Source of the DNA: a virus
Strand: one strand, 5' to 3'
IMG/VR virus record: IMGVR_UViG_3300009094_000064
Coordinates: 1-25,535 of that record
DNA: 25,535 bases
The notes below the pieces were generated by a model, which saw nothing but the letters and a program-made list of their open reading frames with translations, was not told the origin of the DNA and did not search any database. Below, piece by piece: positions 8,687 through 21,523 of this stretch (its first letter is position 1; every line of letters starts with the position of its first letter). A program made the position numbers and the translations under genes.

Positions 8687-8760
8687 TTTCAGGGCCGTCA
8701 GGCGCATGTGGCCGGTTGGCGGATTGAGACACGGCCAACCGTCGCCTGTCGGTCCTGAAA
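8687..8760 (+). ncRNA. Long two-part RNA hairpin upstream of the zinc-ribbon gene
   Basis: The outer arms at 8687-8704 and 8743-8760 pair over 18 positions, with one G-U pair and one T-T mismatch (TTTCAGG at one end, CCTGAAA at the other). An inner perfect 8-bp stem, CGGTTGGC (8713-8720) with GCCAACCG (8734-8741), encloses a 13-nt loop. The two stems are separated by 8 nt on the left and 1 nt on the right. There is no T tract, so it is not a standard terminator. It fills nearly the whole gap between the 52-residue gene and the next start at 8769. Plausible roles are RNase III processing, 3'-end protection, a translation switch for the next gene, or a structured small RNA. Confidence 0.6.
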
Positions 8761-8768
8761 GCAAACAT

Positions 8769-9230
8769 ATGCCGCTATTTCAATTCAACTGTAAAACTGA
8801 TGGAGTATTTGAAGTTCTCCGCAACAGCCTGCCCAAGAATCAGCGCCATAAATGCCCGAAGTGCGGCAAGTCTTCGGCCTTCGTCTGGCCCCTGACGGTG
8901 ATGAAACCTGACACCCTATGGGCTGGCCATGTGATCGCCAATCAAGGCTACTTCACGTCGGAATCGCAGTTAGGGAGAGTCATGAAGAAAAAGAAACATA
9001 CCCGCATTGGAGATCGGAGCGACATAGAAGGAATGAAGGCGATGGCGGACGCGGCGGCAAAGGCTCGTGACGCCAAATTTGCCGAAGAGTCCAGCGAGTT
9101 TATGCGAAACGCGGCGGGTGAGCGCGGGCTGTTGGACGCATTTGGCAATCTCAAACCGGAAGCATCCAAACCTCTAACCGATACCCCCCTCGTATCCAGC
9201 AATGACCCCAGAGTTAAAGTAAAACCTTAG
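8769..9230 (+). CDS. FmdB-like zinc-ribbon phage protein
   Basis: The protein has 153 residues from ATG 8769 (MPLFQFNCKTDGVFEV). Earlier in-frame ATGs would run through the hairpin and are rejected. The N-terminal ~45 residues match the FmdB-type zinc-ribbon layout (MP.f.f.C...G.fEv, then KCPKCGKSSAF). One ligand position is changed, because the first pair is C-K-T-D rather than C-x-x-C. The remainder is basic and then helical (KKKKHTRIGDRSDIEGMKAM, AAAKARDAKFAEESSEFM), ending in a loose tail. The Shine-Dalgarno is weak (GAAAG at 8757-8761, which lies in the hairpin arm), so folding could control translation. It lies just before the head-gene promoter. FmdB-like phage proteins have no agreed role; structural or regulatory functions are both possible. 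Confidence 0.6.
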   Translation: MPLFQFNCKTDGVFEVLRNSLPKNQRHKCPKCGKSSAFVWPLTVMKPDTLWAGHVIANQGYFTSESQLGRVMKKKKHTRIGDRSDIEGMKAMADAAAKARDAKFAEESSEFMRNAAGERGLLDAFGNLKPEASKPLTDTPLVSSNDPRVKVKP

Positions 9231-9312: not shown

Positions 9313-10314
9313 ATGAAAATACAAGCGCCAACTGGACAAGGTTTAGGCGTCCAAAAGTTTTCGATGAAGACGACACCGGGCGGCGGACTTCAGTTCGACG
9401 GGAACGCCCAGACTCCGTTGCAGGCGGCGGCGAGCGCCGCTGAACCTCCAGAGGTTCCCGCCGAAACTCCCGCTCTCGCGCCTACGCCAGTAGCGCCAGC
9501 AACAGCTTTCTCGCGACTCTATCCAGGCGTAGACCCTTCAAAAGTCGAAATGGTCTTAGACGATAAGACCAGAAAGATTCGATTCAAGCCGATCGAGGCG
9601 CCGGCTGATGTTCCGCCCGATCCGGTTACAGCGCCGACCCCACCGGCGCCCGTGGTCACATCCGAGCCTGACGCCATCGCGTTACTGAAGGCCGAGATTG
9701 CCGAGCGGGATAAATTGCAGACCGCAATGCTTACCGCAATGATGAGCGGCAGGCCGCTCATGGAAGTGCTAAGCGGCGCCCCGGCAAAGCCCGCCGAGCC
9801 GGATTACAGTCGCTTTGACCTGGAGGACGAAGAAGGGCGCGCGGCTTATGCGCAAGCGGTCAGGGCTGATGCAATTGCCGCCGCGAAGGCCGAGCTGCAG
9901 GCCGAGATGCGGAATCATCTCCCGCAGATTCAGAACGCCAACAAACATGGCGAGCATTTCGCCCTTCAGGCCAAGTACGGTAAGGAGCCGGATTTCGAGC
10001 AAAAGTCTGCGCTCGCGCAAAAGCTGGCCGGCAACAATCCGAACGTTTCAATTGAAGCAACCTACAACCTGATTAACCAGATTCAGGCCGGGCTAGGCGT
10101 CAGTCCCGCGCCGACCCCGACCGTCAAGCAACCTTCAAACCCGATCCTTACGCCCGCGCAGCAAGCGGAAAAAGCCGCACAGGCCGCGCGCTATCAATCA
10201 ACGAACGGAGGCCGGGCGACTGGCCCGCCCGAACCACCGCCCGAAGTCGCCAAGAACTTCAAAAAACTGGCGCATTGGGTGGCTCAACAGCAAGCTCTGG
10301 GCAATCTTCAATAA
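9313..10314 (+). CDS. Head scaffolding protein
   Basis: The protein has 333 residues. It is rich in Ala, Pro, Glu and Gln, with no stable globular core in the first ~120 residues (many P-A-P-T-P runs). A helical region at ~125-215 (EPDAIALLKAEIAERDKLQT; AYAQAVRADAIAAAKAELQA) is followed by a C-terminal basic/aromatic helix (AKNFKKLAHWVAQQQALGN), which resembles the capsid-binding end of phage scaffolds. It is the first gene after a strong promoter and directly precedes the major capsid gene, as scaffolds do. Scaffolds guide procapsid assembly and then leave or are cleaved. No protease motif is seen. The assignment is by composition and position. Confidence 0.75.
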   Translation: MKIQAPTGQGLGVQKFSMKTTPGGGLQFDGNAQTPLQAAASAAEPPEVPAETPALAPTPVAPATAFSRLYPGVDPSKVEMVLDDKTRKIRFKPIEAPADVPPDPVTAPTPPAPVVTSEPDAIALLKAEIAERDKLQTAMLTAMMSGRPLMEVLSGAPAKPAEPDYSRFDLEDEEGRAAYAQAVRADAIAAAKAELQAEMRNHLPQIQNANKHGEHFALQAKYGKEPDFEQKSALAQKLAGNNPNVSIEATYNLINQIQAGLGVSPAPTPTVKQPSNPILTPAQQAEKAAQAARYQSTNGGRATGPPEPPPEVAKNFKKLAHWVAQQQALGNLQ

Positions 10315-10347: not shown

Positions 10348-11379
10348 ATGGCCTTAGATACCTCTTTCAATCGCGTAGTCGCAACCACCTTGCCGCTCTA
10401 CGCTCCGAGAGTTACGGAATCCATAGTAGGCGGAATCGCCTTGCTGTGGAAAATGGCGATGATGGACGGAGTTGAAACCCGTCCAGGTGGAACACAGATC
10501 GGCGAGCCGACGATCTTGACCGCGAATACCACCGTCCACTCATATACGGAATTCCAAACCCTTGATACAACGCTCCAGTCCGATCCGAATATCGCTTCCT
10601 ATCTTTGGAAGATCATCGCCGGAACCGAGGGTTTGAGCCTGCTCGAACAGGGCAAGAATTCCAATAGCGCTACGGCGCCCGTGGACCTCTGGGACGCGAT
10701 CATCAATCGCCTGGCCCTCTCGATGCGCATTGAGGTCAACCGGGAGCTGTTCCTTGACGGAACCGGAGGCGGCGGCGCGGATCTGACCGGCCTGGCCATC
10801 GGCCTGGATTTTGCCGGAACCAACAGCGTCTACGGCAATATTGACAGCGCGACTTTCACCAACTGGCGCAATCAGACAAGGGCAAGCCCGGCGCTAAACG
10901 TGCTGGATTTGACCACTCCCGCGAATCAGACCGCGATGGTTCGGACCATGCGCCAGCTCGCAAACGACTGCTCCAGCCAAAACGAATGGCCGACGATGTA
11001 TATCACCTCGAAGGAGATTCACGAGGCATGGGAGAGCACGGTCGTTTTAAACGAGCGATTTCAGCGCGAGAGCTTCGACGACGACATGGTTCGGTCGGGA
11101 TTTCAGAACTTCATCTTCAAGGGTGGAGTGCTGTGCTTCGACGATCATATTTTCCCGAACACACTTTCAGCCTCCCCGAGCGCCACGGCAGGCCACGGCT
11201 TTCTCGCGCTCAATCTCAAATATCTCAAGTTCGTGATGATGGAAAACTTCGACTTCGTAATGAGCGATCCTATTCGCCCGTTCGACCAGATGGCCGATGT
11301 TATCCAGATGATCCTTCACTCAAACCTTGTGATGAGCAATCGTCGGCGTCAGGGCCGCACCAACTTCAGAACCGCATAA
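10348..11379 (+). CDS. Major capsid protein (HK97-fold type)
   Basis: The protein has 343 residues, with AGGAG at 10336-10340 upstream. Features seen in this capsid group are an N-terminal segment without a delta domain and a helix-rich middle (NRLALSMRIEVNRELFLDGT). The chain DLTGLAIGLDFAGTNSVYG lies near residues 148-168, followed by TNWRNQT. Later come MYITSKEIHEAW (P-domain-like strand and helix) and the end region GHGFLALNLKYLKFVMMENF. Such proteins form the icosahedral shell. High expression is expected from the promoter at 9249. A small hairpin (CGGC/GCCG, 10320-10332) lies in the gap before it. Homology to a defined Pfam capsid family was not tested, but length, order and pattern make the call strong. 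Confidence 0.85.
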   Translation: MALDTSFNRVVATTLPLYAPRVTESIVGGIALLWKMAMMDGVETRPGGTQIGEPTILTANTTVHSYTEFQTLDTTLQSDPNIASYLWKIIAGTEGLSLLEQGKNSNSATAPVDLWDAIINRLALSMRIEVNRELFLDGTGGGGADLTGLAIGLDFAGTNSVYGNIDSATFTNWRNQTRASPALNVLDLTTPANQTAMVRTMRQLANDCSSQNEWPTMYITSKEIHEAWESTVVLNERFQRESFDDDMVRSGFQNFIFKGGVLCFDDHIFPNTLSASPSATAGHGFLALNLKYLKFVMMENFDFVMSDPIRPFDQMADVIQMILHSNLVMSNRRRQGRTNFRTA

Positions 11380-11388
11380 GGAGAAAAT

Positions 11389-11895
11389 ATGTCAGATGTG
11401 ATTGTAGGATGCGATCCCACTCGCGTGGATACCGTCGCCGCGTTCACACCCGGAACCGAGAGCGCTCATCCCGATACGGCAAACTTTCCAGGGACAAAAC
11501 TCCGTTACGTCAAAGCGGTGACGGCCTTTGCCCTCGGAGACTCGCTGAAGCTCAAAACGGATGAAGTGCTAGAGCCTAACGCCCTGGTTCCAACGGCGGC
11601 AATACAGGAACCCATTGTAGGAATTGCTCACGTTGCGATAGGCGCAGGCTCCTTTGGGTGGATAACTCGACATGGCCGGGTTGCGTCGGCGAAAGCGGCG
11701 GCTTCCACTGCGGCCGGCGCCCGATTGGGATCGTCGGCCACGGCGGGCACACTCACCACGCTCACGCAGGCGGATTCCAACTTCACAAGCAATGACTACT
11801 TCGAACTGCTGGCCTACGCGCAGTCGCCAATCGTCGCGCTCGACGCTAACGACTCGAACGGCGCAAACATCGAAGTCTACATAGGGCAAGGATGA
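11389..11895 (+). CDS. Capsid decoration/cement-like protein
   Basis: The protein has 168 residues, beginning 9 bases after the capsid stop, with AAGGAG just upstream of its ATG. It is Ala-, Gly-, Ser- and Thr-rich and beta-rich with no cysteine near the end. The pattern YVKAVTAFALGDSLKLKTDE, PIVGIAHVAIGAGSFGW and RHGRVASAKAAASTAAGARL resembles DUF2190-type capsid cement proteins (a value carried with alternating short strands and a G.v.v...G.v motif). Such proteins stabilise the expanded head. Its stop overlaps the start of the following enzyme by 4 bases (ATGA), which links the modifying enzyme to head protein synthesis. Confidence 0.5.
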   Translation: MSDVIVGCDPTRVDTVAAFTPGTESAHPDTANFPGTKLRYVKAVTAFALGDSLKLKTDEVLEPNALVPTAAIQEPIVGIAHVAIGAGSFGWITRHGRVASAKAAASTAAGARLGSSATAGTLTTLTQADSNFTSNDYFELLAYAQSPIVALDANDSNGANIEVYIGQG

Positions 11896-13760
11896 TCCAA
11901 ACAAAGCTCAATCTAGGGTCTGGTGGCTCGCCTATGGCGGGCTACCACAACCTTGACATCAAAACCCATGACGAAATCTATCCGCTGCCGGTGGACGATG
12001 GCACGGTAGACGAAGTTCGCGCCAGCCACGTCCTTGAACACTTCCCACATGGCGAAGTCGCGGCCGTGGTGAAGGAATGGGCGCGAGTTCTCAAGCCGGG
12101 CGGTAAGCTCAAAATCGCCGTTCCTGATTTTGATTGGATAGTTAAGGCATACTCAAACGGACACAGGGGCGACGTCAGGCTTAAACACTACCTTTTTGGC
12201 GGACAGCGCGACGGGGACGACTTTCACAAGACATCCTTTAATGAAGAAGAGTTAAAAGCGCTACTCGAAGGCGCCGGACTTGTGGACGTCCAGAAATGGG
12301 AATCCGACGCGCCGGACTGTTCGAGCTATCAAGTCTCCCTGAATCTCGAAGCGCGTAAGCCGGAACCGAAACTGACCTACGCTCCGACTCCGACCTACGA
12401 ATTCATCAAAGACTCGAAGGGCGTAATTCACGTCGGAGCGAACACGGGACAGGCGCGAGATATTTACGCGCAGGCTGGATTGCCGGTCATCTGGATAGAG
12501 GCGGAACCTTCGACGTTCGCCCAACTGGGCGCGAACATCCTGGACTACCCGGGCCAGCGGGCGCTGAACTATCTGATAACCGACAAGGACGGCGGGGAGC
12601 ACACGTTTCACGTCTCCAGCAATGACGGACAGTCATCGTCCATCTTCGACTTCGGCAAACATACGGAAATCTGGCCAGACATCGAATATGTTCACTCCTT
12701 CAAGTCCGAAGGAACAACCCTGAAGACCGCCCTGCAGCGCCATAGTATCAGCCTCGACGAATACGACACGTTGATACTCGACACGCAGGGATCGGAATTG
12801 CTCGTACTAAAGGGCGCGGGGGATCTGCTCGACAGGTTTAAATTCATTCGCGCCGAGGCTTGCGACTTCGAGCTGTACAAGGGCGGCTGTCTTCTCAAGG
12901 ACCTCGACGATTACCTCATACCGCGCGGCTTCGAGCGCGTAATGACCTGGCACTACAAGCGCAGCCCGCAGCCCGAAGTCGAGCGGATCTACGAGGCGCT
13001 GTATCAGAAGAAGGCCGAGGTAAAGAAGACCCGCGAAATAAAGCCGATATACATTCACGATGAGCAGACAGGGGCGAAGGCGATTTGGAGCGTTGCGGCA
13101 ATGGCGAGCGTCCCGCGCCTGGGCTTTCAGGCCCATATGGGCGCGTCGGAGCGGGCTTTCGCAGATCCTCGAATACCGATGCTAAGGCTGAGCGGCTGCG
13201 TGTTCTGGGAAATGACCATGCAGGGCGGCTTCAATTCGTTAATCAAGTCCGGCGCCGACTACATAATCACGACGGACTACGACACGATATTCACCGGCGA
13301 GGATGTAAAGGAACTGCTACGGCTCGTCGTTCGATACCCTGAAGCCGACGCCATAGCGGCCTGGCAGGCCTCCCGCTGGAAGGACCATCCCCCGCTCGCG
13401 GGAATCAAGACAGAAAGAGGCTGGAACGGCGCCGTCTCAATCGAAGAAATGAAGCGCTACGACCTGACCGAAGTTGACAACACGGTCTACGCCCTGACGA
13501 TCATTAAGACTGCGGCCCTAAAGAAAATACCCAAGCCGTGGTTTGTGAACATCCCGAACGCGGAGGGCGAATGGGAGCACGGCAAACATGACGCCGATAG
13601 TTATTTTTGGTCGAAATTCAGGGAGGCCGGCAACAAGCTGTACATGGCGAACAATGTACGCGTCGGCCATCTGCATGAAGAAGTCCTATGGGTGGACAGC
13701 GACTTTAATTTAATCAAGCAAGGCTTGACCGATTACTATTCGAAGGGCCGACCCTTCTAA
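11892..13760 (+). CDS. Three-domain methyltransferase / FkbM methyltransferase / glycosyltransferase
   Basis: The 622 residues fall into three recognisable units. Residues 1-~155 are a class I SAM-dependent methyltransferase: LNLGSG (6-11) binds SAM, and SHVLEHF (45-51), WARVLKPGG (63-71) and KIAVPDFDWI (74-83) are hallmark motifs. Residues ~170-375 are an FkbM-type methyltransferase: IHVGANTGQ (179-187), WIEAEPSTF (201-209) and LILDTQGSELLVLKGAG (294-310), which is the usual D.qG.E...L.G motif. Residues ~385-622 look like a GT-A glycosyltransferase with a DxD-like TTDYDTIF (460-467), DADSYFW (567-573) and VGHLHEE (591-597). FkbM enzymes O-methylate sugars, so the product may add and methylate a glycan. 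It lies between decoration and tail genes, so a virion protein is a likely target (inference). Confidence 0.85.
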   Translation: MIQTKLNLGSGGSPMAGYHNLDIKTHDEIYPLPVDDGTVDEVRASHVLEHFPHGEVAAVVKEWARVLKPGGKLKIAVPDFDWIVKAYSNGHRGDVRLKHYLFGGQRDGDDFHKTSFNEEELKALLEGAGLVDVQKWESDAPDCSSYQVSLNLEARKPEPKLTYAPTPTYEFIKDSKGVIHVGANTGQARDIYAQAGLPVIWIEAEPSTFAQLGANILDYPGQRALNYLITDKDGGEHTFHVSSNDGQSSSIFDFGKHTEIWPDIEYVHSFKSEGTTLKTALQRHSISLDEYDTLILDTQGSELLVLKGAGDLLDRFKFIRAEACDFELYKGGCLLKDLDDYLIPRGFERVMTWHYKRSPQPEVERIYEALYQKKAEVKKTREIKPIYIHDEQTGAKAIWSVAAMASVPRLGFQAHMGASERAFADPRIPMLRLSGCVFWEMTMQGGFNSLIKSGADYIITTDYDTIFTGEDVKELLRLVVRYPEADAIAAWQASRWKDHPPLAGIKTERGWNGAVSIEEMKRYDLTEVDNTVYALTIIKTAALKKIPKPWFVNIPNAEGEWEHGKHDADSYFWSKFREAGNKLYMANNVRVGHLHEEVLWVDSDFNLIKQGLTDYYSKGRPF

Positions 13761-13771
13761 GGGGAAATTTT

Positions 13772-13984
13772 ATGCCTGCAATGAAGAAAATGAAGAAAAC
13801 GACAATTGGCAAGAAGGGCCAATTCAACACGAATACTACGAATCCGAGCGCCGGCAGAGGCGGCGGACCAAAGGGCTTTGTTGTTTCGAGCACTTCAACC
13901 GTAAGTCAGGGCGCGGGAGCGAAGGCTGGCGCGCACGGCAAAGCGATGGGAACCCGCAAGGGCGGCGGCGGGAGGTCGTACTAA
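13772..13984 (+). CDS. Small basic glycine-rich protein, unknown function
   Basis: The protein has 70 residues, with AAGGGGAA before the ATG. It is almost entirely Lys/Arg, Gly, Ser, Thr and Asn (MPAMKKMKKTTIGKKGQFN; GRGGGPKGF; MGTRKGGGGRSY), so it is probably disordered and strongly positive. It has no cysteine and no acidic residue. It could bind DNA inside the capsid, act as a small head or tail component, or be the modified partner of the preceding glycosyltransferase; none of this is shown. The stop overlaps the next start by one base. Confidence 0.65.
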   Translation: MPAMKKMKKTTIGKKGQFNTNTTNPSAGRGGGPKGFVVSSTSTVSQGAGAKAGAHGKAMGTRKGGGGRSY

Positions 13985-14586
13985 TGGCTGAAGATTTTTT
14001 GACCGCCGAAACCAAACCGAAGCCCGAGAAGAAGCCGCGCAAGCCGCGCGGTCCGATGTCCGAGGAGCAAAAGGAAAAGATCCGCGCCTCGAACAAGGCC
14101 GCGCGCGAGCGCTTGAACGCCGAGCGAGCGCCGCAGGTTCCCAACGCTAAAACCGGCATCACCGCCGATGACGCCGAGGAAATGCGCCTTGAGCTTCAAC
14201 TCGCGGCGGCTCAGACCAAGATCAAGGAAGCGGCGATTTCCGAAGATACCCGGCTCATGGTTCATCAGGAGATCAGGGTCGACGTGTTCAATCTGAAGCG
14301 TCAATTCGTCGAACTTACTCCCTCGATGTGTCGATCTCGCAATTGTCCGTTCGACGCGGCGCGGGAGGCGGGCGCAACCGCATGGGGCGATGCTCCTATA
14401 GCGCAGCCGATGAACGACGGAAAGACCTTCGGCGATAGGCTTATCGAACTTCGGGATTATCACGAAGCGACGGCTCACACGGCTCAACAAGTGGAGAGCC
14501 ACATTATTACCGCTGGCGAGTTAAACAGCCGGCAGTGGAATCCGGGCCAGTCCATCAAGAACGAGTTTTTGACGGGTGCAAAATAG
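13984..14586 (+). CDS. Phage protein with basic NUMOD3-like N-terminus, unknown function
   Basis: The protein has 200 residues, coupled to the previous gene by TAATG. Residues ~12-45 are very basic. A KPRKPRGP AT-hook-like run is followed by SEEQKEKIRASNKAARERL, which resembles NUMOD3-type DNA-binding motifs (SeE.keKIr.s.K). Residues ~55-110 are helical (MRLELQLAAAQTKIKEAAIS). A later segment has one C-x-x-x-x-C pair (CRSRNC) and the end is unremarkable. I see no HNH or GIY-YIG nuclease core, so a homing endonuclease is unlikely. Position before the adaptor suggests a virion or head-completion protein that touches DNA, but this is only context. Confidence 0.6.
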   Translation: MAEDFLTAETKPKPEKKPRKPRGPMSEEQKEKIRASNKAARERLNAERAPQVPNAKTGITADDAEEMRLELQLAAAQTKIKEAAISEDTRLMVHQEIRVDVFNLKRQFVELTPSMCRSRNCPFDAAREAGATAWGDAPIAQPMNDGKTFGDRLIELRDYHEATAHTAQQVESHIITAGELNSRQWNPGQSIKNEFLTGAK

Positions 14587-16944: not shown

Positions 16945-17823
16945 ATGGCCAGCGCTTTAGCAAGAGTGACGGATTTCGTTCCCGCAACGCCGATCCTGTC
17001 GGCCGAGGTAGACGCCGAGTTTAATCAGCTCGTCAATCTGCTCAACGGGACCAGCACGGCTGTCAAGGGCGTAATGAAGGTCAGCGATACGGGCGATCCG
17101 CCGCTTGAGCTGAACCAGCTTTCAACCGGGCCGATCCTGAAAGGCTTTCAGGCCGGCGTCGAAAAGTTCCGCATTCGCAATGACGGCTCGATCCGAACCC
17201 CTGGAATCTACGACACGAACGATAACGAGCAGTTACTATTCAGCCTGACCGCCGCAGCGATTAACGAGTTCACGATGAAAAATGCCGCCCTCGGCAACGC
17301 GCCGCAGTTACAGGCGACAGGCGGCGATACGAATATCGGGATCGCGCTTGTTCCGAAGGGGTCCGGCGTCGTCAAGATTCAAGCGGGGCTCCCGGTCGCG
17401 AACGAAGACGCCGCGAATAAGCTCTACGTTGATAACAAGCGGGCGTATTTCGTCGCGGCCTTCAAGATTGATGACCCTTCGACGTTCCCGCTGACTGACC
17501 AGAGTGCCCTCGCGTTCGTCAGGATTCCGAATATAGCAAGCGGATTTATTACTCGCGTCCATATCCTGTTTGCGTCAGGCTCGCACACGGCGGGCGGAAG
17601 CGTGACCTTCCGAGTCTTTATAAACGGCGCAGGCGTCGGTAGTGGCGTGGCCTTCACCGACACGAATAACACGGCCTTCACTTTCTACGCTGAGGACTTT
17701 GCCGATCAGGCTATATCGGACGGCAGCTCGATGACCGTCGTAATCAGCGCGAGAAGCGGAACCGTCACGGAGCGGAACGTCACAATCAACGTCGAGGGCT
17801 ATCAAAACATCAAGTCCCCATAG
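16945..17823 (+). CDS. Tail fibre protein, first paralogue
   Basis: The protein has 292 residues; the ATG directly follows the upstream TAA. The N-terminal ~50 residues (RVTDFVPATPILSAEVDAEF, NQLVNLLNG) match the next gene and are the attachment domain typical of short-tail fibres. A shaft follows with ELNQLSTGPILKGFQ and a KGSGVVKIQAGLPVANEDAA stretch continuing into NKLYVDN; the latter is the frequent phage-fibre DAaNK.YVD collar. The C-terminal ~140 residues are beta-rich (VRIPNIASGFITRVHILFAS and on) and look like a jelly-roll tip. It probably makes first contact with the host surface. Trimerisation is expected but not visible. Confidence 0.7.
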   Translation: MASALARVTDFVPATPILSAEVDAEFNQLVNLLNGTSTAVKGVMKVSDTGDPPLELNQLSTGPILKGFQAGVEKFRIRNDGSIRTPGIYDTNDNEQLLFSLTAAAINEFTMKNAALGNAPQLQATGGDTNIGIALVPKGSGVVKIQAGLPVANEDAANKLYVDNKRAYFVAAFKIDDPSTFPLTDQSALAFVRIPNIASGFITRVHILFASGSHTAGGSVTFRVFINGAGVGSGVAFTDTNNTAFTFYAEDFADQAISDGSSMTVVISARSGTVTERNVTINVEGYQNIKSP

Positions 17824-17831
17824 GCTAATAA

Positions 17832-18734
17832 ATGGCTGTACTGACGCGCATAACCGATTTCATTCCGAATACGCTCATCGTCTCACAGGAAGTTGACGAT
17901 GAGTTTAACCAGCTTGTGAATATACTGAGCGGGGTTTCGACGAATAAGGACGCCTTGATTAAGTATAGTCACGCGACCGACCCTGTTTTGCGCGTGGACC
18001 AGCTTGGCGCGGGCAAGATTCAGAGCTGGCTACAAAACGGATCGGAAAAGGCGAACATCACGAACGCCGGCCTTGTAACCTCGGTCGGCATGACGTCTAC
18101 CGGACAGATCAATACCAGCTTCAACGACGGGACAAATCCCGCGCTCAACGTCAACCAGATCGGGGCCGGACTAATCGAACGCTGGCAGAATAACGGAGCC
18201 GACAGGGCTTCGCTGTCGGCTCTCGGCCGATTCCTTCTCCCTGCGGGAATCGGGGCAACGCCCTCGACTGACCAGATAAGCAATTTCGGGACATACTTCG
18301 TCGATCCGACAACGCGCGCCACGATAGCGAATACGCTTGAAACGGACCTTTCAAGTAAGACCGTCGCGGCCAATACGTTCGCAGCGAACGGCGATTTTAT
18401 GATCGGCTTCGCTGAGATAGCCTATGCGGCAAACGCGAACACGAAGCGTTATAGGCTCTATTTCGGCGGGAACGTGATTTACGACACGACCGCCCTCGGC
18501 CTAAATGGCGTCGATCACATGGTCTTATTCTTCCTGATGCGAACCGGCGCCACGTCCTTGCTCACTTTTATAATGGTAAACTCGACGAGCGCCTTGCTCG
18601 CGGCGGCGGCGACGAGCGCGACCGCGCCGACGTTCTCAAATAGCAACATACTGAAAAGTACAGGGCTGAACGGGACGGCAAACGCGAACGATATACAGCA
18701 ACGCGGCTTTATAGTCGTTAAGGGCAGTGTTTAA
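17832..18734 (+). CDS. Tail fibre protein, second paralogue with internal duplication
   Basis: The protein has 300 residues. Its N-terminal domain (RITDFIPNTLIVSQEVDDEF, NQLVNILSG) is a clear paralogue of the preceding gene. The shaft contains two copies of one unit: LRVDQLGAGKIQSWLQNGSE near residues 55-75 and LNVNQIGAGLIERWQNNGAD near 102-121. The C-terminal ~140 residues differ completely from the first fibre (YRLYFGGNVIYDTTALGLNG; MVLFFLMRTGATSLLTFIMV), so the two probably have distinct receptor tips or form a fibre pair. The ribosome site is weak; the ATG starts 9 bases after the upstream stop. Confidence 0.7.
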   Translation: MAVLTRITDFIPNTLIVSQEVDDEFNQLVNILSGVSTNKDALIKYSHATDPVLRVDQLGAGKIQSWLQNGSEKANITNAGLVTSVGMTSTGQINTSFNDGTNPALNVNQIGAGLIERWQNNGADRASLSALGRFLLPAGIGATPSTDQISNFGTYFVDPTTRATIANTLETDLSSKTVAANTFAANGDFMIGFAEIAYAANANTKRYRLYFGGNVIYDTTALGLNGVDHMVLFFLMRTGATSLLTFIMVNSTSALLAAAATSATAPTFSNSNILKSTGLNGTANANDIQQRGFIVVKGSV

Positions 18735-18735
18735 T

Positions 18736-19371
18736 ATGAGCGAACCGAAAGTAACGTGGTTTGATGACTTTCTAGGCATCCGGATCAACCCGATCTATGC
18801 GATCTCGCTGGCTGGAACCGGCGATGTGAAAATATCGGACGGCCCGAACGGGGTCCTTGCGCTCTACGCGACATCCGCCGCGGCCGGGACGGCGCGCGTA
18901 AGGCTCGGCGAGGAACCTGGGAATAGTCTTCACAACGCCCTCAATTTCAGCGCGAGAAAGAATCTCGTTTATCAAGCTCGCGTCTTCCTGAATCGCAATA
19001 CGGACATTCAGGCGACGGTCGGGCTGACAGGTCTGAACGATCCCCACAACGTTTTGGCCCTTGTTTATGACCACCCCCATACGCAAGAGGGGTGGTTTTT
19101 CCAGGGGATAAACGAAGGCGCAAACCTGACTATCCCTATAGGCTTCAAACATGATCCTGGCGCGTACTTTACGGTTAGGATCGAAGCCGATCCGGACATC
19201 GCCAAGGTCTTCATCAGCGGCGAGGTCGAACCGAGGGCCGTTATCGGCCACGAATTCATACCGGACGGACTGTGCGCCGAATTCCAGGTCTGGAATAGGC
19301 CGCTCAGCGGCGGACTCTATTCACAGCCGACGCTTTATGCTGACTATCTCTCGATCACTCAGGATCGCTAA
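18736..19371 (+). CDS. Beta-sandwich (lectin-like) tail-associated protein
   Basis: The protein has 211 residues from ATG 18736, one base after the preceding TAA; an in-frame start at 18727 would overlap it. The protein is built of beta-strands with Gly and polar turns (WFDDFLGIRINPIYAISLAG; YFTVRIEADPDIAKVFISGE; CAEFQVWNRPLSGGLYS). Alternating strands ending in a long-range Y-A-D-Y-L pair resemble concanavalin-A-like carbohydrate-binding domains seen on phage tails. No catalytic residues for a depolymerase are obvious. It could be a receptor-binding or head-fibre component. A terminator-like hairpin lies inside the gene at 19070-19100. Confidence 0.5.
   Translation: MSEPKVTWFDDFLGIRINPIYAISLAGTGDVKISDGPNGVLALYATSAAAGTARVRLGEEPGNSLHNALNFSARKNLVYQARVFLNRNTDIQATVGLTGLNDPHNVLALVYDHPHTQEGWFFQGINEGANLTIPIGFKHDPGAYFTVRIEADPDIAKVFISGEVEPRAVIGHEFIPDGLCAEFQVWNRPLSGGLYSQPTLYADYLSITQDR
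19070..19100 (+). terminator. Intragenic terminator-like hairpin
   Basis: ACCACCCC (19070-19077) pairs perfectly with GGGGTGGT (19089-19096) around an 11-nt loop, followed directly by a T run ending at 19100. The geometry equals a weak rho-independent terminator, but it is inside a coding frame (YDHPHTQEGWFFQ). It could lower expression of the downstream ejection genes, or be chance. The reverse strand has no T tract in the needed place. Confidence 0.35.
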
Positions 19372-19381
19372 AGGAGACTAG

Positions 19382-20344
19382 ATGGCCGTTTCCAATCTCT
19401 CGCCGTTTCAACAGGCGCTTCAATCCGTGGTCGGATCGGGCAAGGGAGCGGGCGCTAATCTAACGCCTGAAATCCTCGGCCGCGTGGCTGATTCCGTTTT
19501 TGGCCCGTTTCCGATTCCGCCCGGTTCGCAAATCATCTTCCAAGGGCCGGACCGCGCCGAGTGGATTGACGCCGAGGGCTATCGCCACAGTGCCACGCGC
19601 TCGCTCGATGGTAGAGATCCGAACGCCGGACGCGTCCGCGAGCAAACCGACCGACCGCCGATTCTCCCAGCCGGACAGGGCCAGCAAGACCTTTTAGGCC
19701 AACTGACCGGCGCGCAGGGCATACAGTCCGACATCGAAGCCGTCAGAAACCTTGCCGCGAGATTGCAGGAACCCGCCGTACTGGCGCAGCTGGACCCGCA
19801 GACAAAGGCCGCGCTTGACCAGATCACGCAAAATACGCTCACGCAACTAACTCAACAATTCCAGCAGGACCAGGCTCGCCAGCTCGCCGCACTGTTCGGC
19901 AATCGCGTACAGCAAAGCTCGATTGCCACGAACGCCGTAGGCCAGCTTTTAGAGAATCAGGGCCGGGTTACATCGCAGGCCTTAGCCGAAGGCGCAGGGC
20001 GCGAGCTTGGCGCCCGTCAGTTCATCACGGACACTCAGCGGGCAAATCTAGCAACGGCCTTGCAAGGCCTACTTGCTGGCGCGGACGTTCAGAGCGGCTT
20101 GATTCAAAACCTGACCGGCCAGCAAACGCAGCGCGATATCGCGGGTGGGAATCTCAATTTAGGCTTCGCGGACCTGGCCGAGCGATCACGCGCGACCGGA
20201 CTGGACTTCGAGCTAGGCCAGCAAGAGGCGGATCGAAAACTTGCCGAATCTCGCGCGCTCTTGCCGAAGATACTCGCGACGATTCAAACTCTCGGACAGG
20301 CTGCGCAAGGAATCGGCACGGGCATTGCCGGTTTTAAGGGGTGA
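19382..20344 (+). CDS. Internal virion / DNA-ejection protein, small
   Basis: The protein has 320 residues, with AAGGAG upstream. Residues ~30-105 are hydrophilic with several P and G. From ~105 the chain is almost continuous Gln/Ala/Leu-rich helix: LTQLTQQFQQDQARQLAALF, RELGARQFITDTQRANLATA, FELGQQEADRKLAESRALLP. It closes with LPKILATIQTLGQAAQGIGTG, an Ala/Gly-rich helix. This is the composition of small podovirus ejection proteins such as P22 gp7/gp20 or T7 gp14, which leave the head first and build a channel. Three such genes in a row follow the tail genes here. The assignment is by composition and order only. Confidence 0.5.
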   Translation: MAVSNLSPFQQALQSVVGSGKGAGANLTPEILGRVADSVFGPFPIPPGSQIIFQGPDRAEWIDAEGYRHSATRSLDGRDPNAGRVREQTDRPPILPAGQGQQDLLGQLTGAQGIQSDIEAVRNLAARLQEPAVLAQLDPQTKAALDQITQNTLTQLTQQFQQDQARQLAALFGNRVQQSSIATNAVGQLLENQGRVTSQALAEGAGRELGARQFITDTQRANLATALQGLLAGADVQSGLIQNLTGQQTQRDIAGGNLNLGFADLAERSRATGLDFELGQQEADRKLAESRALLPKILATIQTLGQAAQGIGTGIAGFKG

Positions 20345-20347
20345 TCT

Positions 20348-21523
20348 ATGGAATTTGGACCAGCTACAACGGGCGTACAACAGGCGATTTTGGCGCTACT
20401 CCAAGGGCGAAGCCCCAGCCCCGTGGCGCCCGTACCGCTCGCGCCCACGGGCGGAATCGGACCGCTCGAAATGGACACCACGGCGGCGCTCGCGGCGCTT
20501 CAACCGCAGCCCGTTCCAGCGCCACTGCCCGGACCTGTAGACGCTGAAGCGATCCGATCACGCTTCGCCGGGATGGCCGGACCTGAGCCGGCTGCGCCCA
20601 CAGTCGAGCCGACGAGCCTGATTATTCGGATCGCTCGCGCGCTCCAAGGATTCGGCGCGGGCGTCCAAGGACAAGGGCCGCAATTTCTCGCGCAGCTCGC
20701 CGAACAGCGCGAAGCTCCACAGCGTGAGTACCGGGCGAGAAAGGAGCGCTTCGATGCGCGAAAGCAGGATCTCGAATTCGCCGGCGAACAGGCTGTACTG
20801 TCAGCCGAGGATCGCCGGGCGCAACGAACTCAACAGCTATTGGACAAGCAAGCTGACCGGGACTTCGAGGAGTCGCTGAAGCGCGCGGGACTCAAGAGCG
20901 CTGAAGCCATCGCCCAGATGCGCGCCGCTTTCGACCTTGAGCGAGACGCCCGTAAGGCCGAATTCGAGCGGCAGGAACAGGCGCGCAAGGACGCCAAGGA
21001 CCGCAAAGCGGCAGTTACCACGCTGGCGAATACTTTTACGGACGATTTTAAAGTCTCGCGACAGGAAGCGCTGCGATTCGCCCAACACGAAATAGAAGGG
21101 ACGGCCCTCAGCGCGGCGGACGCCAAGCGCTATGGCCGAATCGAGAAGTACAGGCCAGCCGCAGGCGGAACCGGGTCGGGCGGCGGAAGCGGTAAGGTAA
21201 TGGTCGAGATCGTAAACCCTGACGGCTCGACATCCGTGGTTCCTTTCAATCAACAGGTAAGCGCAGCGATCAACGCCGGGAATGTAGATCAGGGGCCGCG
21301 CGGCGTCTTCGTTGATGGCGGAAGCGTAACGCCCCGACCGATGCCCGGCGCGCCTGGCGGGCCACAAGGCCCATTCGTTCCACCTTCAGCGCTCGCCGCC
21401 CCGCAGCCGCCAGCCGGGACTGTATTCACGCGCGCCCAGGTAGAGGCGCACGCCAAGAAGACGAAACGCGATCCAGCCGCCGTTGAAGCCGACATACGGG
21501 CGCGGGGCGGCGTCGTGCAATAG
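20348..21523 (+). CDS. Internal virion / DNA-ejection protein, coiled-coil
   Basis: The protein has 391 residues, with AAGGGG at 20336-20341. Residues 1-~90 are Pro/Ala-rich. Residues ~95-115 contain an amphipathic helix (LIIRIARALQGFGAG). A very long charged coiled coil follows at ~120-230 (ARKERFDARKQDLEFAGEQA; MRAAFDLERDARKAEFERQE). The remainder is Gly/Pro-rich and ends with a small helical motif (TRAQVEAHAKKTKRDPAAVE). Coiled-coil ejection proteins form the tube through the cell envelope in podoviruses, and position between two other such genes supports this. No enzymatic motif was found. Confidence 0.5.
   Translation: MEFGPATTGVQQAILALLQGRSPSPVAPVPLAPTGGIGPLEMDTTAALAALQPQPVPAPLPGPVDAEAIRSRFAGMAGPEPAAPTVEPTSLIIRIARALQGFGAGVQGQGPQFLAQLAEQREAPQREYRARKERFDARKQDLEFAGEQAVLSAEDRRAQRTQQLLDKQADRDFEESLKRAGLKSAEAIAQMRAAFDLERDARKAEFERQEQARKDAKDRKAAVTTLANTFTDDFKVSRQEALRFAQHEIEGTALSAADAKRYGRIEKYRPAAGGTGSGGGSGKVMVEIVNPDGSTSVVPFNQQVSAAINAGNVDQGPRGVFVDGGSVTPRPMPGAPGGPQGPFVPPSALAAPQPPAGTVFTRAQVEAHAKKTKRDPAAVEADIRARGGVVQ

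Follow-up and report, generated by a model that had tools for sequence, protein, structure and literature searches.

A methyltransferase-FkbM-glycosyltransferase fusion exchanged together with the capsid decoration gene in uncultured tailed phages, a putative virion-glycan writer

The window, the whole 25,535-nucleotide stretch of viral DNA analyzed here, encodes a fusion of two methyltransferase domains and a glycosyltransferase domain (MT1-FkbM-GT) whose gene is exchanged as a pair with the adjacent capsid decoration (cement) gene in the window lineage. From these comparisons of sequences we put the probability at about two in three that the enzyme is a dedicated virion-glycan writer, one that would glycosylate and O-methylate the cement protein and be exchanged with it as a cassette. 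Only a few cultured phages, most of them mycobacteriophages, are known to glycosylate their virions, and head decoration proteins are usually regarded as stabilizers.

A preliminary description of the window, made from the sequence alone, had recognized a 622-residue protein with two SAM-methyltransferase folds and a GT-A-like glycosyltransferase. The open reading frame proved exact, and Pfam, AlphaFold2 and a DxD motif agreed with its reading of the domains (Table 1). In the domain search and structure prediction that it had proposed, MT1 and FkbM both scored over the Pfam cut-offs and the GT-A assignment came from the model. Residues 27-134 matched Methyltransf_11/23/25 over the curated cut-off, with a best E of 4.9e-8 for Methyltransf_11, and with 33.9 bits against a cut-off of 21.2 (Methyltransf_11/23) and its motifs present in nearly all relatives MT1 is a class I SAM methyltransferase. 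Residues 180-347 matched FkbM (PF05050, E 8.2e-10, 39.5 bits against a cut-off of 22.7) over nearly the full length of the profile (positions 1-171 of 173). The C-terminal domain fell below the cut-off for Glycos_transf_2 (residues 455-544, E 0.12, 12.7 bits against 23.3), and for this reason we call it GT-A rather than a member of the GT2 family; the homologous domain of one relative (L104) does score over that cut-off. The C-terminal part of the fusion also matched PHROG 1574, of unknown function (E 1.5e-4).

Table 1. Features of the window discussed in the text
Feature	Position	Strand	Description and basis
Scaffold candidate	9313-10314		Position only
Major head protein (MCP)	10348..11379	+	phrog_9953, E 2e-30; upstream border of the cassette
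Decoration (cement) protein, proposed substrate	11389..11895	+	168 aa; PF09956 Phage_cement_2, sub-threshold; covariation with the enzyme
MT1-FkbM-GT fusion enzyme	11892..13760	+	622 aa, ATG start, intact ORF; Pfam, AlphaFold2, six full-length relatives
MT1, class I SAM methyltransferase domain	11892..12362	+	Residues 1-157; LNLGSG, NLD, SHVLEHF and PDFD motifs; Pfam, motif conservation in 53 sequences, fold matches
FkbM methyltransferase domain	12372..13025	+	Residues 161-378; HVGANTG, IEA and DTQGSE motifs; PF05050, alignment, dN/dS
GT-A glycosyltransferase domain	13038..13757	+	Residues 383-622; AlphaFold2 and Foldseek, relative L104 over Pfam cut-off
GT DxD metal/sugar-nucleotide motif, D462-Y463-D464	13275..13283	+	Both Asp invariant in 53/53 relatives
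His593, candidate metal ligand of the GT domain	13668..13670	+	Kept in 52/53 relatives; putative role, by analogy with GT-A enzymes
Small basic Gly-rich protein	13772..13984	+	Downstream border of the cassette; pairwise identities
Further small gene	13984-14586		Between the Gly-rich gene and the adaptor
Fibre-type gene	20348-21523		Identities track the backbone

The AlphaFold2 model of the fusion, built from a 53-sequence alignment, had a mean pLDDT of 88 and a pTM of 0.45, a value at which the single domains are reliable and their relative placement is not. Searched against the PDB with Foldseek, it matched class I methyltransferases and GT-A glycosyltransferases, the latter including the collagen galactosyltransferase COLGALT1 (9evj, E 6e-7) and mimivirus R699 (9dyt, E 6e-6), so that the C-terminal domain combines a GT-A fold with a DxD motif. 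A sequence search of the PDB returned weak methyltransferase matches alone.

In the GT domain D462, D464, R409, Q492, R495, D569, F572 and W573 are invariant across the 53 relatives, and the GxG and SHxLEHF motifs of MT1 are near-universal. All three domains are under purifying selection in the window lineage, with dN/dS in the triple-domain set of 0.06-0.14 for MT1, 0.04-0.16 for FkbM and 0.02-0.12 for the C-terminal part of GT; values up to 0.38 arose only where two N-terminal subtypes of GT were compared. Given six full-length relatives at 67-100% identity and dN/dS mostly of 0.02-0.16, a chance open reading frame is excluded. No domain proved degenerate in all relatives, an outcome that the preliminary description had counted against its reading: the motifs are intact in the window lineage, and MT1 is degenerate in one distant sub-clade of the relatives selected by MCP (below). 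The nearest neighbors differ by domain, FkbM grouping L003, L004 and L005 and GT grouping L004, L005 and L006, and the fusion gene is therefore itself mosaic.

The enzyme gene lies among virion structural genes, the order being scaffold candidate, major head protein, cement, enzyme, Gly-rich protein, further small gene and adaptor. As had been pointed out in the preliminary description, its ATG overlaps the stop of the preceding gene, in the form ATGA (11892..11895, + strand), and this junction is identical in all six distinct triple loci (the window and L003-L007), which makes translational coupling of cement and enzyme likely. The window cement protein matches PF09956 below threshold (E 5.4e-4, 20.8 bits against a cut-off of 24); of 11 homologues, 4 match the profile with E no higher than 0.01, the best of them at 3.6e-6. 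The C-terminal half of cement is near-invariant in the triple carriers (LTQADSNFTSNDYFELLAYAQSP...ALDANDSNGANIEV). A protein encoded at 8706-9230, between the portal and the scaffold candidate, has a sub-threshold zinc-ribbon match (E 2.2e-7, 31.2 against 34.4 bits).

No sugar-nucleotide genes were recognized among the window proteins scanned, and the donor sugar is thus presumably host-derived. The earlier idea of a self-contained virion glycan system consequently went too far in the word self-contained, while the comparative data strengthen its virion glycan part. An integrase is present in the records L002, L007 and L093, and the lineage is therefore temperate. We found no cultured close relative of the phage; Myxococcus phage Mx9, to which the MCP is most similar (28%), has no enzyme annotated at the corresponding position.

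The behavior of the cement gene was followed in 12 records with a related head protein (81-100%). The site between the cement and Gly-rich genes holds MT1-FkbM-GT in the window, L084-L087 and L091, FkbM-GT without MT1 in L093, and GT-MT1 in L092, and is empty in L083, L088, L089 and L090, although cement is present in these four. The window and L083, which has no enzyme, are 96% identical in terL, 90% in portal, 97% in MCP and 86% in adaptor, but only 40% in cement. The sister phages L091 (triple) and L092 (GT-MT1) are likewise 92% identical in terL, 92% in portal, 95% in MCP and 92% in adaptor, and 38% in cement. Conversely, the window and L091, both with the triple, are 71% identical in terL, 73% in portal and 55% in scaffold, and 80% in cement. 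Thus cement is 77-81% alike on distant backbones that share the enzyme, and 38-40% alike on backbones that are 90-97% alike (terminase, portal, capsid) with a different enzyme or none. When the six triple carriers among 11 distinct phages were relabelled exactly, the real labelling ranked 1/462 for excess cement similarity. The occurrence of cement-bearing phages without the enzyme (L083, L088-L090) would make any such modification dispensable in the lineage.

The preliminary description had offered the decoration protein, the Gly-rich protein or the fibres as targets, and the decoration protein is favored, since it co-varies with the enzyme while the other two follow the backbone. The Gly-rich protein, 76% identical between the window and L083, 68% between the window and L091 and 86% between L091 and L092, was rejected as a co-evolving target because these values vary with the phage backbone rather than with the cassette. 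The fibre-type genes were rejected as well; the one listed in Table 1 is 78% identical between the window and L083, and 34% between the window and L091, which share the enzyme.

The triple arrangement is not singular, but one of several architectures found at the same site. A single-sequence scan of viral contigs returned six loci, all triple, one identical to the window (L002) and five at 67-83% (L003-L007). An alignment-based scan revealed that most often the protein has two domains only, MT1-GT, and a length of about 390 aa. A first domain scan assigned 71 ORFs to this form; that scan counted L008, L009, L049, L073 and L075 as MT1-GT because their FkbM is of a second subtype (FkbM'), making them MT1-FkbM'-GT. 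FkbM' matches PF05050 in all five members scanned, including L010, a permuted triple (GT-FkbM'-MT1). L011 is a permuted GT-MT1, and L025 has an additional N-terminal methyltransferase. Stand-alone FkbM genes adjoin MT1-GT in L198, L200, L227, L229 and L230, and FkbM has therefore joined the pathway repeatedly. The exact MT1-FkbM-GT triple is confined to one uncultured podovirus lineage, as a variant of a widespread MT-GT fusion family. A search with the FkbM domain alone gave matches in the window lineage only, and among 50,697 INPHARED phage records there was neither a full-length relative nor a fused MT-GT. The best 80 loci in bacterial genomes mostly had MT1 or FkbM alone; the fusion was present among them in five MAG contigs only, four of which adjoin a capsid gene and/or the small protein described below.

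Several members of the family have peculiarities of their own. In L007 a stretch of about 50 residues (about 10450-10640), Cys-rich and resembling a zinc ribbon, is inserted between MT1 and FkbM; the other triple proteins lack it. The MT1-GT protein of L106 (8150-10714) is 855 aa long, 460 residues of which form an N-terminal extension without a Pfam match. L046 and L047 each have a second, downstream GT-MT1 fusion (17192-19681), apparently split by an intein that contains a LAGLIDADG endonuclease domain. In L031 (9848-12579) the genes for the head and small proteins are followed by one gene for GT alone and one for MT1-GT, which a gp6-like connector gene separates, and in L067 (7167-8469) sulfotransferase and cytidylyltransferase-like genes, which suggest sulfated or otherwise tailored glycans, lie between the small capsid-linked protein and MT1-GT.

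Outside the window lineage the fusion occupies a corresponding position. Among 60 loci, each a fusion gene preceded by 2 kb or more of sequence (some near-duplicates among them, and counted apart from the window-lineage loci and the second, intein-bearing gene of L046/L047), 56 have the order MCP, a protein of about 150 aa, and MT1-GT. The head protein assignment is independently given by PHROGs, which place 26 of the 31 upstream genes examined in phrog_617/phrog_10, most of these lying at position -2, and the small protein is phrog_5707, of unknown function. Because the profile of the small protein had been built from genes at that position, a control set was picked by head protein alone; in the 57 loci of this set with enough downstream sequence, the small protein was present in 54 and the enzyme or part of it in 53 (40 MT1-GT, 12 GT with an MT1 remnant, and 1 MT1 only, cut by the contig end). 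Within the control set the similarity of the GT domains is tied more strongly to that of the small protein than to that of the MCP, with partial correlations of 0.54 and 0.17, a result that 0/2000 permutations reached.

In L237, L240, L242-L246, L249, L250, L253, L258 and L259 the gene after the small protein consists of a GT domain behind the MT1 remnant, which, as read in four of these 12 loci, is without the LNLGxG and SHxLEHF SAM-binding motifs and is kept as an N-terminal domain. The small protein is predicted to form a beta-sandwich (AlphaFold2, pLDDT 74). It had no PDB match at E ≤ 0.001, and its tenth-ranked match was a weak one (E 5.6e-3) to a capsid chain of phage Carin1. Homology between it and the cement protein was considered and found unsupported, with an hhalign probability of 4%. 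One 62.1 kb record, L187 (IMGVR_UViG_2927473223_000001), combines head protein, small protein, MT1-GT and an integrase; its IMG number resembles that of an isolate genome, so that a cultured lysogen may exist.

Because neighboring genes may be transferred together even when their functions are unrelated, linkage alone could mimic the covariation of cement and enzyme, and it could be proposed that the cement protein swaps through adjacency only and that sugar and methyl groups are added by the enzyme to another virion protein, such as the MCP or the fibres. The enzyme gene does lie in the head operon, one gene from that of the MCP, and in the mycobacteriophage precedents it is subunits of the capsid and the tail tube that are modified (PMC12363180, PMC12619734, citing Freeman et al. 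2023). We nevertheless regard this as unlikely, given that the MCP remains 95-97% identical across phages with a different enzyme or none and the cement protein only 38-40%, that the fibre-type genes have diverged to 34% between two phages that share the enzyme, and that in the second set of phages the similarity of the GT domains goes with the small protein rather than with the MCP. It was also necessary to consider that a gene absent from several close relatives (L083, L088-L090) is cargo, or encodes a pseudo-enzyme, without virion function, but with dN/dS mostly of 0.02-0.16, invariant catalytic motifs, and the enzyme or one of its domains kept in 53 of the 57 capsid-selected loci this is very improbable.

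An enzyme that modified a host surface glycan (LPS or capsule) might block superinfection or alter the lysogen, as phage Gtr seroconversion systems do. The temperate nature of the lineage would suit such roles, and other phages, Synechococcus phage S-SRM01 among them, do have FkbM genes within glycan clusters. On the other hand, the gene is located inside a late head operon, with the ATGA overlap with cement and a position conserved in unrelated phages, and the fusion looks soluble; no flippase or membrane partner of the Gtr type was recognized among the window proteins scanned. The locus therefore does not resemble a Gtr seroconversion cassette, and we consider action on the host surface distinctly improbable. 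Modification of phage DNA, by glycosylation of a hypermodified base, was entertained as well, given that phage glycosyltransferases can glycosylate DNA (PMC12619734). It is scarcely plausible for a gene that is found in the structural module rather than among DNA metabolism genes, is exchanged with cement, and includes an FkbM domain, of a family whose members occur in islands for flagellin glycosylation (PMC4875605, PMC5109656).

Modification of the cement protein is thus the reading we prefer. Accepting it, the enzyme gene would probably share one transcript with the cement gene and probably be translationally coupled to it. The GT-A domain would move a host-supplied nucleotide sugar onto the cement protein, or onto a sugar already there, and MT1 and FkbM would then O-methylate hydroxyls of the glycan, leaving a capped, methylated sugar on the capsid exterior that might shield the particle or otherwise alter its surface properties. 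Cement and enzyme would constitute a two-gene cassette through which phages could swap decoration protein and glycan chemistry together.

The general kind of system is already known, from a chlorovirus enzyme, from mycobacteriophage virion glycosylation and from flagellin islands. A064R of the chlorovirus PBCV-1 (638 aa) has three transferase domains, GT-GT-MT, and builds and O-methylates the outer part of the capsid N-glycan (PMC9614988). Compared by architecture, A064R and the window enzyme are both single viral proteins fusing GT and SAM methyltransferase domains, with a methylated glycan on the capsid protein as the product of A064R. They differ in that A064R, from a eukaryotic virus, has two rhamnosyltransferases, one methyltransferase and no FkbM and acts on an existing N-glycan, whereas the enzyme from the window is MT-FkbM-GT, belongs to a tailed phage and has a putative substrate. 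In mycobacteriophage Corndog the head operon includes genes for an O-methyltransferase and three glycosyltransferases, gp35-gp38 (PMC4351075), and glycosylation of capsid or tail tube is reported for Che8 (gp110), Corndog and Myrna in PMC12363180 and PMC12619734, citing Freeman et al. 2023. These too are phage-encoded O-methyltransferases and glycosyltransferases of the head region, but they are separate genes between portal and protease, and the targets are capsid and tail tube subunits and not a decoration protein.

In Enterobacteriaceae and Geobacillus the islands for flagellin glycosylation include FkbM methyltransferases, and those of Enterobacteriaceae also glycosyltransferases that contain methyltransferase domains (PMC4875605, PMC5109656). 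The islands share FkbM with the window and modify a surface structural protein, as the window enzyme putatively does, but are cellular and multi-gene, with flagellin as target and GT41 or GT2 enzymes. The cyanophages S-SRM01 and P-SSM2 have an FkbM homologue about 28-30% identical to the FkbM domain of the window. In S-SRM01 it lies among glycosyltransferases, but in both phages it is a single-domain gene, and in the S-SRM01 region inspected it is not beside head genes. Searches of the accessible literature, which comprised papers open without subscription, turned up no account of phage proteins fused as MT-GT or MT-FkbM-GT. As far as that literature shows, it is new for tailed phages to have the fused architecture, for a decoration gene to be the partner, and for the two to be exchanged as a cassette.

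What emerges at the level of genomes is a rule, that a glycosyltransferase, usually fused to one or two methyltransferases, stands directly behind the capsid decoration gene in phages of uncultured hosts. Whether the MT-(FkbM)-GT fusions as a whole make up a widespread and hitherto undescribed class of glycan writers specific to capsid decoration, each forming a swappable pair with its decoration protein, we judge to be evenly balanced. The data suggest that head decoration proteins are carriers of a variable sugar coat, and these phages probably put swappable methylated sugars on their shells; if so, uncultured tailed phages, much like bacteria trading modules for flagellin or O-antigen glycosylation, would alter the chemistry of the capsid surface by trading one two-gene cassette.
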